Assembly (NCBI RefSeq): GCF_000160695.1
Contig: NZ_GG694007.1
Location: forward strand, 1 to 64,000
DNA: 64,000 nt
From: Centipeda flueggei ATCC 43531
GTDB taxonomy: Bacteria; Bacillota; Negativicutes; Selenomonadales; Selenomonadaceae
Direction of reading: 5' to 3'
The position numbers were made by a program, and so were the translations under genes. Below, one piece after another: positions 18,083 to 23,683 of this stretch. The notes beneath the pieces are model-generated. The model was not told where the DNA came from and did no database searches. It saw only the letters and a program-made list of their open reading frames with translations. How positions within the stretch are numbered: position 1 is the stretch's first letter; each line of letters opens with the position of its first letter.

Positions 18083-19183
18083 TCACGGTGTCGCGGGCGT
18101 CTCCGCGCTCACCGCACCGCGCCGAATCATGTCACCGACGCGCAGATCATAGGTAAGTGCCATCTTGTGCAGGGTCTCTGCTCGAGCGAAGTCCTCGGTC
18201 GTGCCTCCGTTCAGCCCCTTCACAAAGCTCTCATACGCGCCGATAAACGCCTCGGTCGCCGCCTTGCGCTGTGCAGCAAGATACTGTGCGCCGTGGGGAA
18301 CATCTACGCCGTCCAGCTCCTTCTGATACTTCTTGAGCAGGGGAATCATATCCTCCTGCAGGAGATGTGTCAGCGACTTGCGGTACACCGTCGTATAGGT
18401 ACTGCGTCCCGTCTCGGTCAGATTGCGGAACTCCCGCTGCTTCGAGCGAAATACACCATTATAGCGATCCACAATAGGACGCGTTGCATCGATGTAACGT
18501 CCCAGATTGCTTGCCGCAGCCTTCTGCACGGCCTCGAGATAGGCGCGGTAATTCGTCACGCGTACGACCCGCCAGCCCGTATCGCCGCGCTCCATGCGCA
18601 GCTGGAGGGGAAACTCCAGCGCTGTCCCCTCGTCACGCACGGTGATGTTCGCCGTCGCGGCACTCCCATCCCGCTCTACGCTGTCAATGTGCAGGAGTGT
18701 CGTATCACGCAGGTGACTGTACTCCATGAGATACTCAAAATCGATACCAAGCTGACGCCCCTTCAGAGGATCCACCCCCTCCGGGGACGGCCACGTTCCG
18801 CTCCCGACAGCCGTCTCAATACTGTCCACGATCCCTGCCGCAACACTATCCTTGATCTTCTCGTAGAATTTCCCCGAGGCGCTGCGTTCCTTTGCCTTCA
18901 GATGCGTATCCCCCGAGAAGAGCACATAGGTGAGATCATCATAGCCCGATGCCGTCATCGATGCGATATCGACACGGCGCTGAAAGGCCTGCACATCATG
19001 TGCAGCAAGCGCTGCCGCAGCCTGCTCAAGCGCATAGGAGGGGCGCTGAATATAGTAGCCGAGATACCAACCGAGAATCGTGATCGTCAGAGCGATCACC
19101 CCCGCCGCCACACGAAATTTACGCTGACGCGCTTTGCGCCGGCGTGCCAGACGCACGCGCCACGCAAACTCATCCAGCGCCAT
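18083..19183 (-). CDS. Single-span membrane protein with DUF2939-like region, function unknown
   Basis: A 366-residue protein. A basic N-terminus (RVRLARRRKARQRKFR) precedes one membrane helix (about residues 26-46), so most of the protein lies outside the cytoplasm. The stretch YALEQAAAALAAHDVQAFQRRVDI just after the helix resembles the DUF2939 pattern. The C-terminal half looks helical. I chose the ATG at 19183 because GGGAGGTGCGGCA precedes it; the 45 codons upstream have no ribosome site and overlap a terminator. No enzymatic motif is visible. Confidence 0.75.
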   Translation of the reverse strand: MALDEFAWRVRLARRRKARQRKFRVAAGVIALTITILGWYLGYYIQRPSYALEQAAAALAAHDVQAFQRRVDIASMTASGYDDLTYVLFSGDTHLKAKERSASGKFYEKIKDSVAAGIVDSIETAVGSGTWPSPEGVDPLKGRQLGIDFEYLMEYSHLRDTTLLHIDSVERDGSAATANITVRDEGTALEFPLQLRMERGDTGWRVVRVTNYRAYLEAVQKAAASNLGRYIDATRPIVDRYNGVFRSKQREFRNLTETGRSTYTTVYRKSLTHLLQEDMIPLLKKYQKELDGVDVPHGAQYLAAQRKAATEAFIGAYESFVKGLNGGTTEDFARAETLHKMALTYDLRVGDMIRRGAVSAETPATP

Positions 19184-19279
19184 TGCCGCACCTCCCTTTG
19201 CACGAACTTTAATGCTGTTATTATAGCACGGAATATCCCTCGCGTTCAATCGGCAAAAATAAGTCTCCACGCAAAAGGA

Positions 19280-19312
19280 CTGCTGCATGAATCCAACATC
19301 TTCGTGCAGCAG
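19280..19312 (-). terminator. Terminator after the biotin operon (shared stem family)
   Basis: CTGCTGCATGAA and TTCGTGCAGCAG pair over 12 bases with one wobble around a 9-base loop; the minus strand continues TCCTTTTGC. It lies just after the stop of the last bioA and shares its stem with 4813-4841 and 23716-23754. Confidence 0.65.
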
Positions 19313-19329
19313 CCCCATGTTTCATCCGT

Positions 19330-20679
19330 TCACTGTACTCCCAGCACCTCATCCATCGACGCCTTCATCTGTGCGATGGCGGTGTTGAGATCATCGCGCC
19401 CGATGTTCAGCGGCGGATTGAAGTAAAGCACGTCGCCGAGCGGGCGCAGGAGCAGCCCGTGCCGGAGCGCACGACGATAGATCGCATAGCCAAGGCGGCG
19501 ACTGGGATCAAAGGGACGCTTCGCTTCGCGATCCTCGACCAGCTCAACCGCATGAATCAGCCCAATGTGGCGGATCTCGCCGACGTTCGGATGCGCACCG
19601 AACGTCTCCGTCATGCGTGCAGTCAGCCACGATGCTGTCTCCTCCGCCCGCTCCAGAATATTCTCCTCATCGAGAATGTCGAGCACGGCGAGCGCCGCGC
19701 TGCAGCCGAGCGGATTCCCCGCGTACGTATGACTGTGCATGAACGCCTTGCCCTCGCTCCAGTCGGCATAGAATGCCTCGTAGATCTTCTCCTTGACGAC
19801 GGTGATGGACATGGGCATATAGCCTCCCGTCAGTCCCTTCGAGAGGCACATGAGATCAGGCGTAATCCCCGCACGCTCACACGCAAAGAGCCGTCCCGTG
19901 CGCCCGAACCCCGTCGCAATCTCGTCGGCGATGAGGAGGACATCGTACGCGTCACAGAGGGCGCGCAGCTTCCTGAGATATTCCTCGGGATAGATGCGCA
20001 TCCCCGCACTCCCCTGCAGGAGCGGCTCGACGATCATCGCTGCCGTCTCGTGCCCGTGCGCGGCAAAGGCACGCTCTGCATGCTCAAAACACGCGCAGGA
20101 GCAGGTGCCGCGTGTCTCCCCATAGGGACAGCGGTAGCAGTCGGGCGCCTCGATATGGATGTTGTCCATCATCATCGGCTTGTACATCTCGGCAAAGAGA
20201 TCCATGCTCCCCACCGAGAGCGCGCCGATCGTCTCGCCGTGATAGCTCTCCGAGAGGCACATGAAGCGAATTTTTTTCGTGCGCCCCGTCTGCTGGCAGT
20301 ATTGGAAGGACATCTTGAGCGCCGCCTCGACCGCAGAGGAACCATTGTCGTTGAAGTGGAACTTCGTCAGTCCCTCGGGCACAAGCGCCGTCAGACGCTC
20401 GGCAAGTTCGATCGCGCCGCGGTGCGAGAAATTTGCAAAGATCACATGCTCGAGGCGGTCGAGCTGCGCCTTGATGTGTGCGTTGATCTTCTCGTTGGAA
20501 TGCCCCAGGAGATTTGCCCACCAAGAGCTCACAATATCGAGATAGGACTTGCCGTGCACATCGCAGAGCCATGGACCCTTTGCGTGGTCAATGACCATCG
20601 GCGGCAGCTCCTCATAGTCCTTCATCTGCGCGCACGGATGCCAGATCCGGCGCAGGTCGCGCTCCTCAATTGTCGGCAT
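19330..20679 (-). CDS. bioA: Adenosylmethionine-8-amino-7-oxononanoate aminotransferase, copy 1
   Basis: A 449-residue BioA, the PLP aminotransferase that uses S-adenosylmethionine to make 7,8-diaminopelargonate. Visible are SSWWANLLGH, NDNGSSAVEAALKM (PLP phosphate), ESYHGETIGALSVG with the active-site Tyr, LIADEIATGFGRTG, and the PLP lysine in CLSKGLTGGYMPMS (about residue 277). All expected residues are present, so this copy should be active. RBS AGGAGGGGTC precedes the ATG. It is the last gene of bioY-bioD-bioA-bioA; the upstream neighbour is a close duplicate. Copy 1 keeps the consensus in places where copy 2 does not. Confidence 0.95.
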   Translation of the reverse strand: MPTIEERDLRRIWHPCAQMKDYEELPPMVIDHAKGPWLCDVHGKSYLDIVSSWWANLLGHSNEKINAHIKAQLDRLEHVIFANFSHRGAIELAERLTALVPEGLTKFHFNDNGSSAVEAALKMSFQYCQQTGRTKKIRFMCLSESYHGETIGALSVGSMDLFAEMYKPMMMDNIHIEAPDCYRCPYGETRGTCSCACFEHAERAFAAHGHETAAMIVEPLLQGSAGMRIYPEEYLRKLRALCDAYDVLLIADEIATGFGRTGRLFACERAGITPDLMCLSKGLTGGYMPMSITVVKEKIYEAFYADWSEGKAFMHSHTYAGNPLGCSAALAVLDILDEENILERAEETASWLTARMTETFGAHPNVGEIRHIGLIHAVELVEDREAKRPFDPSRRLGYAIYRRALRHGLLLRPLGDVLYFNPPLNIGRDDLNTAIAQMKASMDEVLGVQ

Positions 20680-20697
20680 AAAAATGACCCCTCCTAC

Positions 20698-20729
20698 GAA
20701 AGCACTGATACACGCGGTGCTTTCCTAAA
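20698..20729. repeat. Collapsed inverted-end element between the two bioA genes
   Basis: GAAAGCACTGATACACGCGGTGCTTTCC is two element ends placed almost head to head. It is followed by CTAAACACACATTAC, the same sequence that follows the fuller element at 22156-22260. Confidence 0.65.
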
Positions 20730-20791
20730 CACACATTACACACAAAGCACGAAGTTTTTCCTTTCGTGCGGCAGCTTCCTCTACAGAGTTC

Positions 20792-22138
20792 CTATGCCCC
20801 CAGCACCTCATCCATCGACGCCTTCATCCATGCGATGGCGGTGCTGAGGTCATCACGCCCGATGTTCAGCGGCGGATTGAAGTAAAGCACGTCGCCGAGC
20901 GGGCGCAGGAGCAGCCCGTGCCGGAGCGCACGGCGATAGATCGCATAGCCAAGGCGGCGTCCTCCGTCAAAAGGACGCTTCGTCTCACGATCCTCGACCA
21001 GCTCAACTGCGTGAATCAACCCGATGCGACGGATCTCGCCGACGTTCGGATGCGCACCGAACGTCTCCGTCATGCGCGCAGTCAGCCACGATGCGGTCTC
21101 CTCCGCGCGCTCCAGAATATTCTCCTCATCGAGAATGTCGAGCACGGCGAGCGCCGCGCTGCAGCCGAGCGGATTGCCCGCATACGTGTGACCTTGCATG
21201 AACGCCTTGCCCTCGCTCCAGTCCGCATAGAACGCGTCGTAGATCTTTTCCTTGACGACGGTGATGGCCGTGGGCATATAGCCGCTTGTCAGCCCCTTTG
21301 AGAGGCACATGAGATCGGGCGTGATGCCCGCACGCTCACACGCAAAGAGCCGTCCCGTGCGCCCGAACCCCGTCGCAATCTCGTCGGCGATGAGCAGGAC
21401 ATCGTATGCGTCGCAGAGGGCGCGCAGCTTCCTGAGATAGTCCTCGGGGTAGATGCGCATCCCCGCGCACCCCTGCAGGAGCGGCTCGACGATCATCGCC
21501 GCCGTCTCGTGTCCGTGTGCAGCAAAGGCACGCTCCGCATGCTCAAAACACGCGCAGGAGCAGCTGTCGCGCGTCTCCCCATAGGGGCAGCGATAGCAGT
21601 CGGGTGCCTCGATATGGATAGTGTCCATCATCATCGTCTTGTACATCTCGGCAAAGAGATCCACGCCCCCCACGGAGAGCGCCCCGATTGTCCCTCCGTG
21701 ATACCCTTCAGAAAGGCACATAAACCGCGTCTTTTTCGTACGCCCTGTCTGCTGACAGTACTGAAACGCCATCTTGAGCGCCGCCTCTACAGCGGACGAG
21801 CCGTTATCGTTGAAATTGAACTTCGTCAGTCCCTCGGGCACGAGCATCGCCAGCCGCTCTGCAAGCTCAATCGCGGGACGATGGGAGAAATTCGCAAAGA
21901 CGACGTGCTCGAGCCGCCTCAGCTGCGCCGTAATCCGCGCATCGATCTTCTCGTTCGTATGTCCGAGGAGATTTGCCCACCACGAACTGATAATATCGAG
22001 ATAGCCCTTGCCGTGCACATCGTAGAGCCATGCCCCCTTTGCGTGATCGATCACCATCGGCGGCAGCTGCTCATAGTCCTTCATCTGCGCGCACGGGTGC
22101 CAGATATGGCGCAGGTCACGCTCCTCAATCGTCGGCAT
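20792..22138 (-). CDS. bioA: BioA-like aminotransferase, copy 2 (diverged duplicate)
   Basis: A 448-residue close duplicate of the gene at 19330-20679, by eye roughly 90 percent identical. The 3' portion is almost identical and the substitutions concentrate in the 5' half. The PLP lysine (CLSKGLT) and the YHG tyrosine are kept. However, the acidic residue after YHG is lost (YHGGT instead of YHGET), the glycine after LT is Ser (LTSGYMPTA instead of LTGGYMPMS), and the QG-S-AG stretch reads QGCAG. These sit near the cofactor, so activity or substrate use may have changed (inference). RBS AGGAGGAGAG precedes the ATG. Confidence 0.92.
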   Translation of the reverse strand: MPTIEERDLRHIWHPCAQMKDYEQLPPMVIDHAKGAWLYDVHGKGYLDIISSWWANLLGHTNEKIDARITAQLRRLEHVVFANFSHRPAIELAERLAMLVPEGLTKFNFNDNGSSAVEAALKMAFQYCQQTGRTKKTRFMCLSEGYHGGTIGALSVGGVDLFAEMYKTMMMDTIHIEAPDCYRCPYGETRDSCSCACFEHAERAFAAHGHETAAMIVEPLLQGCAGMRIYPEDYLRKLRALCDAYDVLLIADEIATGFGRTGRLFACERAGITPDLMCLSKGLTSGYMPTAITVVKEKIYDAFYADWSEGKAFMQGHTYAGNPLGCSAALAVLDILDEENILERAEETASWLTARMTETFGAHPNVGEIRRIGLIHAVELVEDRETKRPFDGGRRLGYAIYRRALRHGLLLRPLGDVLYFNPPLNIGRDDLSTAIAWMKASMDEVLGA

Positions 22139-22155
22139 AAAAGCTCTCCTCCTGC

Positions 22156-22260
22156 GGAATCACGGATAAAACAGTCCCCAGGATTGGCGTAGATTTTCCG
22201 CCGAAGTGCGGGAAAATAGGCGTCAAGAGCCGCGGGCTGAATTGATCAGTGCTTCCCTAA
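22156..22260 (+). repeat. Dispersed inverted-end element, copy C
   Basis: Starts GGAATCACGGATAAAACAG, carries the shared core GATTGGCGTAGATTTTCCGC and AAGTGCGGGAAAATAGGCGT, and ends TGATCAGTGCTTCCCTAA. It lies between bioD and bioA copy 2. Confidence 0.8.
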
Positions 22261-22267
22261 ACACACA

Positions 22268-22948
22268 TTACTCATACAGCGCGGCAAGCGCATCCGCCCT
22301 CATCGGCAGTTCCGCCGCGCCGTGCGGCACACACGCCAAGACACGCGCTCCCGTGATCTCCTCGACCATCCGCACATTGTCCTCCTGCATCAGACCGCCC
22401 TGCCAATTGTTGAAGATAAAGCCCCGCAGGGGAATGCCGCGCGCACGCAGATGCTCTGCCGTCAGCACAGCGGCATTGATCGTTCCGAGCCCTGCATCGG
22501 CAACAACGAGCGCAGCGAGCCCCAGCCGCACGGCAAGATCGTCAAGGACGACGTGCTCATCGCCGTCCCAGCGCAGCGGGCAGATAATGCCGCCGCTCCC
22601 CTCCACCGTCAGATAGTCCGTGCGCTCCTTCGCGCGGCGGTAGTCCTGCGCCACCTTTGCAAAATCCATCGGGCGGTGCTCGATCTGCGCCGCGAGATGC
22701 GGTGAGACCGCATCTCGATAGACATAGGAGACAGTGACATCCGCCGCATCGAGCTCCGCGACACGCGCCACATGGAGCGCATCACCCGGCAGGAGCGTAC
22801 CGTCCGCGGCGACCTCCGCGCCCGAGAGTGCCGCCTTATAGTAGCCCGCCGCAACCCCCGCGTCACGGAGACATTTCACAATCAGCCCCGTGACATACGT
22901 CTTGCCGATGTCCGTCCCCGTTCCCGTGACAAATAACGCCTTACCCAC
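22268..22948 (-). CDS. bioD: Dethiobiotin synthetase
   Basis: A 226-residue BioD, which closes the ureido ring of dethiobiotin from diaminopelargonate, CO2 and ATP. The P-loop GTGTDIGKT lies at residues 9-17, and the conserved VEGSGGIICPL segment is near the middle. It starts with GTG at 22948 after ACAGGAGGCGCATCATAC. It lies between bioY and the bioA pair in one transcript. bioF and bioB are not in this window, so the organism may complete the pathway elsewhere. Confidence 0.95.
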   Translation of the reverse strand: MGKALFVTGTGTDIGKTYVTGLIVKCLRDAGVAAGYYKAALSGAEVAADGTLLPGDALHVARVAELDAADVTVSYVYRDAVSPHLAAQIEHRPMDFAKVAQDYRRAKERTDYLTVEGSGGIICPLRWDGDEHVVLDDLAVRLGLAALVVADAGLGTINAAVLTAEHLRARGIPLRGFIFNNWQGGLMQEDNVRMVEEITGARVLACVPHGAAELPMRADALAALYE

Positions 22949-22965: not shown

Positions 22966-23580
22966 TCAGACATCCATGCGATTCGCATGCACCGCTGCCC
23001 CCTGCACGGGAGCAGTGCTCCGCGGCTGCGTCTCCTGCGTCTCACGAATCCAGAGCCCCGCCTTGTAGAGGCGAATCCCGGCGTACGCCGCCGCGACGCA
23101 GAGCAGGAAGTCCGGCAGAACCTGCAGCACGCCGCAGTACCAGACCGCCACCCAGAAACCGATCGGCGCGTCGATAATGTAGTTCGATATGAAGTAGAAA
23201 TACGGGATGCCGAGGGCATAGAGCACCACCATGCCTGCTGCACACGCGGCAAGTGCACGCCGGAACGTCGGCACGCCGCGGCGCGCCAGCGCGCCCGTCA
23301 CCCAGCCCTGCAGGATGAAGCCGACGAGATAGCCGAACGTCGGCTGAAGCACATAGGCAGGGCCGCCGCCCGAGGCGAACACGGGAATCCCCACGAGCCC
23401 CATGAGTACATACGTGCCGATGGCGAGCGCACCAAGCCGCGCACCGAGCATCAGCCCCGCGAGCAGGGTAAAGAGGAACTGCAGCGTGTAGACATCCGTA
23501 CCCACAGGGATGCGCACGAACGTCCCGACCGTAATGAGCGCGATAAACAGCCCGCATAGGATTACTTCACGTAACTTCAT
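22966..23580 (-). CDS. bioY: Biotin transporter BioY
   Basis: A 204-residue S-component of the biotin ECF transporter with about six membrane helices. The GTFVRIPVGTDVYTLQFLFTLL segment near the start and the GLVGIPVFASGGGPAYVLQPTFGYLVGF segment around residues 60-90 match the BioY family. It imports biotin, alone or with the general EcfAT module. It is the first gene of the biotin operon and its promoter overlaps a BirA-like operator, so import and synthesis are presumably shut down together when biotin is plentiful. Confidence 0.95.
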   Translation of the reverse strand: MKLREVILCGLFIALITVGTFVRIPVGTDVYTLQFLFTLLAGLMLGARLGALAIGTYVLMGLVGIPVFASGGGPAYVLQPTFGYLVGFILQGWVTGALARRGVPTFRRALAACAAGMVVLYALGIPYFYFISNYIIDAPIGFWVAVWYCGVLQVLPDFLLCVAAAYAGIRLYKAGLWIRETQETQPRSTAPVQGAAVHANRMDV

Positions 23581-23628: not shown

Positions 23629-23657
23629 ATCTTACTCGCTATTTTATTTATTGTCAA
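23629..23657 (-). promoter_or_regulatory. Promoter of the biotin operon
   Basis: On the minus strand a perfect TTGACA (23657-23652) and TAAGAT (23634-23629) are separated by 17 bases. The bioY ATG is about 50 bases downstream. Confidence 0.8.
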
Positions 23658-23683
23658 CCAGAATATTCTATGTAGGTTTACTA
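23651..23683. promoter_or_regulatory. BirA-type biotin operator
   Basis: TTGTCAACC (23651-23659), 15 bases, then GGTTTACTA (23675-23683): an imperfect palindrome matching the known BirA operator form TTGTAAACC-N14-16-GGTTTACAA with one mismatch in each half. It covers the -35 box of the bioY promoter, as expected for a repressor site. Confidence 0.8.

Follow-up and report, generated by a model that had tools for sequence, protein, structure and literature searches.

A tandem bioA pair in the Selenomonas noxia group, with a remodelled active site in the upstream copy

The biotin gene cluster and its two bioA copies

The DNA analysed here is a 64,000-nucleotide stretch of Centipeda flueggei ATCC 43531 (hereafter the window), and on its minus strand a biotin gene cluster is found in the order bioY-bioD-bioA(A1)-bioA(A2), with the bioA pair as the cluster's end. 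The first gene encodes the biotin transporter component BioY (22966..23580), which matches PF02632 with 120 bits (cut-off 25) and gave no match in the NCBIfam search. It is followed by bioD for dethiobiotin synthase (22268..22948; TIGR00347 126 bits, cut-off 83). The upstream bioA copy, A1 (20792..22138), encodes a BioA homologue of 448 residues with a remodelled active site, and the downstream copy, A2 (19330..20679), a protein of 449 residues with consensus active-site residues and a mosaic origin. Both frames are open, adjacent and intact, and they lie where a sequence-only reading of the locus had placed them; that reading was right in outline, but several of its details are corrected below. 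The gene downstream of A2 (18083-19318) has a weak match to DUF2939 only (25.8 bits, cut-off 24.8), and its product is 87% identical between the window and Selenomonas felix, which is below the conservation of its neighbours.

Upstream of bioY lies the inverted repeat TAAACC-N15-GGTTGAC (23653..23680, minus strand), which we take to resemble a BirA operator. It is overlapped by a promoter-like sequence, TTGACA-17-TAAGAT (23657-23629). The form AAACC-N12-17-GGTT is present upstream of bioY in three of eight related loci (L009, L010 and L016), and the remaining loci have by eye a degenerate BirA-like box, the left half of which is absent in L011. We infer putative BirA control of the bio cluster, with the repeat as a candidate operator only, as well as putative co-expression of A1 with the biotin genes.

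Spacers and the duplicated unit

The bioD-A1 spacer (22139..22267, minus strand) holds a repeat that belongs to an interspersed family, and the A1-A2 spacer (20680..20791, minus strand) consists of a terminator-like hairpin, a copy of a string from the bioD-bioA spacer, a short hairpin and the ribosome-binding region of A2. The string, CTAAACACACATTAC, occurs at exactly two places in the 2.16 Mb genome (20725 and 22257), one before each bioA copy, and a whole-genome search with two mismatches allowed returned the same two places and no more. The sequence-only reading was thus correct in seeing the same string before both copies, but not in taking it for the end of an element: before A1, CTAAACACACATTAC contains the stop codon of bioD (22268-22270) and opens the bioD-bioA spacer. 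The spacer before A1 also contains the interspersed repeat, which has 54 matching stretches across the genome when its own is counted, some of them belonging to one and the same copy; before A2 just the short hairpin is found.

From CTAAACACACATTAC onward the A1-A2 spacer is similar to the spacer between bioD and bioA in Mitsuokella sp. oral taxon 131 (48/66 alignment columns; for S. noxia, 51/66), so that bioA was probably duplicated together with the bioD-bioA spacer. Of the proposed duplication of "element plus bioA", the tandem duplication is retained, with the bioD-bioA spacer carried along, and the element is not.

Some minor features of the spacers were also recorded. The interspersed repeat (22139-22262 and elsewhere in the genome) has an end like AGGAAGCACTGATNAATTC; such ends, with three mismatches or fewer, occur five times within the window (9667, 22239, 34427, 34447 and 40140) against 0.01 expected. 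The hairpin after A1 (20747-20769) has a poor T tail, like a worn-down terminator, and is absent from the list of the terminator scan; it may limit read-through into A2. A stable RNA in the A1-A2 spacer was considered and rejected, the fold being no more stable than shuffled sequences (z -0.13).

Distribution of the pair

Presence of the array in other Selenomonas genomes, the check proposed along with the sequence-only reading, was examined in 14 genomes of the genus. The pair was found in three of them, i.e. the window genome, S. felix (L009) and S. noxia (L010), which are related oral bacteria, and the order bioY-bioD-A1-A2 in the latter two is the same as in the window. All three A1 genes are full length and without stops. 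In the family, a bioA match at E <= 1e-120 was obtained in 73 of 189 genomes (76 genes), many of the genomes being incomplete; a second copy is confined to the same three genomes, the other 70 having one match each. Among the open-licence papers listed by literature searches, no title or abstract opening mentions a bioA duplication in Selenomonas.

Mosaic history of A2

The A1 and A2 proteins are 91% identical and align without internal gaps. At the DNA level, the window copies differ at 84 of 480 nucleotides in codons 1-160 (82.5% identical) and at 67 of 864 in codons 161-448 (92.2% identical). The 3' halves had been described as identical; a greater likeness of the 3' part is indeed present, but it falls short of identity and is not general, as A1 and A2 of S. 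noxia are only 79.6% identical in codons 161-448. Expressed as divergence within each genome, codons 1-160 of the two copies differ by about 18% in each of the three species, but codons 161-448 by 8% in the window and S. felix versus 20% in S. noxia.

A2 is a mosaic: in codons 161-448 a monophyletic A2 is rejected (p-AU 0.005). The mosaic structure agrees in part with the earlier proposal of a recent gene conversion in the 3' half, but A1 does not qualify as a simple donor. The absence of a low-divergence 3' part from S. noxia is at odds with a simple and recent A1-to-A2 conversion, and present-day A1 was rejected as donor since A2 of the window and S. felix keeps the consensus pocket residues G285, M290, S291, H315 and S316, all of which are lost from A1 in the three species. 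The 3' flank of the window A2 agrees with the flank of the single bioA of Mitsuokella sp. oral taxon 131 in 69 of 75 columns, as compared to 51 of 79 for S. felix and 34 of 81 for S. noxia, the last of which is partly N. Because the 3' part of A2 keeps the pocket consensus and the window flank matches Mitsuokella, recombination with a Mitsuokella-like allele appears the likelier event and fits these sequences better than conversion by A1.

The age of the duplication relative to the Mitsuokella gene was addressed with topology tests. In codons 1-160, AU rejects a group of A1 and A2 that excludes the Mitsuokella gene (p 0.003), whereas KH and SH do not (p 0.06); AU alone speaks against a duplication younger than the divergence from that gene. 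With the Mitsuokella gene included, the group is not rejected for codons 1-160 (0.43) and is borderline for codons 161-448 (0.049). As a separate observation, BioD of Mitsuokella sp. oral taxon 131 (L011) is 95% identical to that of the S. noxia group although the genome is assigned to another genus of the family, and upstream of bioY the similarity ends, by eye, inside the BirA-like box; the bio cluster of L011 looks as if it had been transferred with a breakpoint in that box.

Residue changes in A1

The copies were compared with two sets of BioA sequences. The family set comprised 65 of the 70 genomes without the pair; G171, G128, G120, G086 and G138 were omitted (G120 and G086 have one in-frame stop each, and G138 is partial), and L080 (G016), flagged with one TGA, was taken to its first stop at 448 residues. 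The wider set consisted of E. coli BioA and 39 loci from a scan of genome contigs, which gave 48 loci; L017-L056 minus L052 were used, and L009-L016 are family set or pair-bearing loci. Four members of the wider set of 40 overlap with the 65, which leaves 101 distinct sequences.

Among the 65 family sequences 134 sites are invariant. A1 of all three species is altered at five of these sites (I80V, E149G, P168T, M290T and H315Q), and A1 of S. noxia carries an additional P27T, whereas A2 is unchanged at all 134 sites; each of the 65 family sequences deviates at four otherwise invariant sites at most. Site 149 is Gly in all three A1 and Glu in all three A2 as well as in 65 of 65 family genes. In the wider set site 149 is Glu in 38 and Asp in two sequences, site 315 is His in all 40, and sites 80 and 168 vary. 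All 101 distinct other BioA accordingly have an acid at site 149 and His at site 315. The changes G285S, S316G, S291A, S158G and S224C are also found in some other BioA, and since the rest recur or vary, the unprecedented pocket changes reduce to sites 149, 290 and 315. The motif differences pointed out in the sequence-only reading (YHGGT for YHGET, LTSGYMPTA for LTGGYMPMS and QGCAG for QGSAG) are all present, and H315Q is an unprecedented pocket change that was missing from its list.

Sites 149 and 315 align with Asp147 and His306 of E. coli BioA. A crystal structure of the E. coli D147N mutant, with Asn at 147, is available (PDB 1S08), and the mutant, described by Sandmark et al. in Biochemistry in 2004, is reportedly inactive in both half reactions. 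The same aligned position is thus altered in 1S08 and in A1, but 1S08 is a single laboratory mutant, whereas A1 is natural, has Gly at this position and carries many accompanying changes. In inhibitor-bound M. tuberculosis BioA, Asp160, which by offset aligns with E. coli 147, helps to hold an ordered water according to an excerpt of PMC12485673. Both copies keep SKGLT (280-284, with the PLP lysine at 281), YHG (146-148) and the substrate Arg, R412, and A1 also keeps GFGRTG. These conserved motifs suggest that A1 can still bind PLP, and the loss of the acid and the His suggests that its chemistry would be changed.

Clustering of the changes in the active site

Active-site ranges, with their own-chain and partner-chain parts, are given for M. 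tuberculosis BioA in text from PMC9311641, and the ranges of that one paper, transferred to the present alignment by motif, comprise 69 of the 448 sites. Six of the 14 residues private to A1 fall into these ranges, as compared to seven of 108 private residues in 12 single-copy genes and none of five in A2 (Fisher p 0.0008 for clustering in A1). One of the six, S224C, is weak, and QGCAG is not diagnostic of A1, since the Cys also occurs in A2 of S. noxia and in five of the 65 other family sequences. When the ranges are extended by sites 279-292 around the PLP lysine the count becomes nine of 14 versus seven of 108 (p 1e-6), but this extension was chosen post hoc and is not primary evidence.

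BioA is a dimer, in which both chains contribute active-site residues. A1 might accordingly be a BioA of little or no catalytic activity that is retained in a partner or regulatory role, for instance in A1:A2 mixed dimers, a reading that we rank second and consider unlikely. It is favoured by the alignment of the lost acid with E. coli D147, by the adjacency and close similarity of the copies, and by the location of the changes in own-chain (149) as well as partner-chain parts (80, 315 and 316) of the site in the ranges from PMC9311641. On the other hand, A1 retains the PLP lysine, YHG, GFGRTG and the substrate Arg, and its private residues are concentrated at the active site more strongly than mere loss predicts.

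Selection on the two copies

Selection was assessed with own-written codon models of the GY94 type (F3x4) on 11 of the 20 tree-set sequences, and the main model covered codons 1-330 with A2 left out. On the stem of A1 dN/dS was 0.11, which is raised over the background of 0.041 (p 0.008) and far below 1 (p 4e-5). In the A1 crown, a sample of three genes only that share a common ancestry, dN/dS was 0.06, which is similar to background (p 0.31) and very different from 1 (p about 2e-18). A first codon-model run agrees with these results. For codons 1-160 alone the A1 values were 0.135 for the stem and 0.086 for the crown (p 0.067) with a background of 0.029, and the A2 values were 0.079 for the stem (mildly raised, p 0.037) and 0.021 for the crown with a background of 0.028.

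A changed selection on the upstream copy, as the sequence-only reading had suggested, is borne out by the raised stem value and by the concentration of private residues in the active site, but a relaxed selection at present is not supported by the crown. The values for A1 point to a burst of change that gave way to ordinary constraint, and not to decay, with perhaps a slight relaxation within codons 1-160, where the crown value may exceed background. Since the stem dN/dS is well below 1 in the codon model, no positive selection on the A1 stem is demonstrated; the same pattern would result if constraint had been partly relaxed on the stem and later restored. With regard to the interpretation in the sequence-only reading as a whole, duplication and changed selection are upheld, relaxation is not, and conversion is upheld in part.

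That A1 is a redundant copy drifting to loss under relaxed selection is the explanation that we rank last and regard as very improbable. Although the raised stem value, the changes at invariant sites and the crown value for codons 1-160 would be expected from drift, the crown over codons 1-330 is constrained, neither of the signs of a pseudogene (a disrupted frame or a dN/dS near 1) is seen in the three full-length A1 genes, and the identity between the window and S. noxia is higher for A1 (97%) than for A2 (91%).

Family membership of A1

Both copies pass the BioA model TIGR00508 (A1 551.2 and A2 559 bits, cut-off 405) and contain the class III aminotransferase domain PF00202 (338.5 and 339.7 bits). 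Of the features that define a DAPA (7,8-diaminopelargonate) synthase, the PLP lysine, YHG and the substrate Arg are found in both copies, but the acid after YHG is absent from A1. A1 thus shares with BioA (TIGR00508; E. coli 1DTY and 1QJ3; 3DOD) the family score, fold domain, catalytic motifs and the bioY/bioD cluster, and differs from BioA proper in having neither the acid of YHG(E/D) nor His at site 315.

On TIGR00508, A1 scores 15 to 24 bits below four single-copy genes. A loss specific to BioA models was rejected because A1 also drops by about 15-30 bits on the generic PRK08117 and PRK05769, while its scores on PRK07036 and PRK07480 are kept. A shift towards omega-aminotransferases was likewise rejected, since the apparent gain of up to 18 bits over A2 on PRK07036 reflects a drop in A2: the four single-copy controls score 321-327 bits on this model, and A1 324-330 bits. 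The profile scores give no direction towards another family for A1. Class III omega-aminotransferases (6S54 and 5LH9) have, like A1, no acid after YHG (L or V in its place), and they have Ser or Ala at the place of Ser285 in A1. Unlike these enzymes, A1 scores best with BioA models, and on omega-aminotransferase models it is not clearly above single-copy BioA.

We rank third, and hold to be still less probable than the partner role, that A1 still functions as a DAPA synthase, either through compensating changes or by means of another amino donor, in which case the pair would provide dosage or donor flexibility. A1 has lost two residues, the acid of site 149 and the His of site 315, that all other BioA compared retain, and PDB 3DOD, which we take to be the lysine-using BioA of B. 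subtilis, also reads YHGDT. The family score and the shared gene cluster would nevertheless agree with this reading, as would the replacement of SAM by lysine in some bacterial BioA, mentioned in an excerpt of a review (PMC9309667) that describes DAPA aminotransferase as unique among known aminotransferases in taking its amino group from SAM.

Proposed explanation and its biological context

In the genus, bioA and bioB (over cut-off) are present in 14 of 14 genomes, no genome has bioF over cut-off (best 32 bits), and bioW gave no match in the 14 genomes. Since neither bioF nor bioW was found in the genus, KAPA (7-keto-8-aminopelargonate) would have to be salvaged. An excerpt of PMC6593275, in which Selenomonas is not named, explains this BioA-BioD-BioB type of pathway by salvage of KAPA, DAPA or dethiobiotin.

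The explanation ranked first, to which we give slightly less than even confidence, is an old tandem duplication of bioA in the bio cluster of the S. noxia group, after which A1 would have gone through a burst of amino-acid change centred on the active site and then come under purifying selection in the three species, with a changed chemistry as the outcome. It would account for the observed gene structure, distribution, residue changes and selection pattern. A1 has lost the YHG(E/D) acid and the pocket His and has changed beside the PLP lysine, and it would remain a protein of the PLP aminotransferase fold that is made together with the biotin genes. Instead of ordinary DAPA-synthase activity, it would use a changed substrate or amino donor. 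A2, which keeps the consensus residues, is probably the working BioA and would make DAPA from KAPA.

Because two active-site residues are lost and the gene is yet preserved, A1 probably does something other than ordinary biotin synthesis. A narrower and more doubtful proposal is that A1 is a neofunctionalised aminotransferase, which arose from bioA within the biotin-salvage cluster of oral Selenomonas and gave up the otherwise constant YHG(E/D) acid for a different acceptor or amino donor. If true, a DAPA synthase would here have been turned, by a natural route, into the catalyst of a new transamination linked to biotin precursors that are salvaged from neighbours. BioA is studied as an antibiotic target, as stated in the excerpt of PMC12485673. 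A1, conserved beside an unchanged sister, offers a ready-made test of the role of the active-site acid, and also of the way in which an enzyme of vitamin synthesis can acquire a new function. As both copies pass the TIGR00508 cut-off, automatic annotation would label A1 and A2 alike as BioA.
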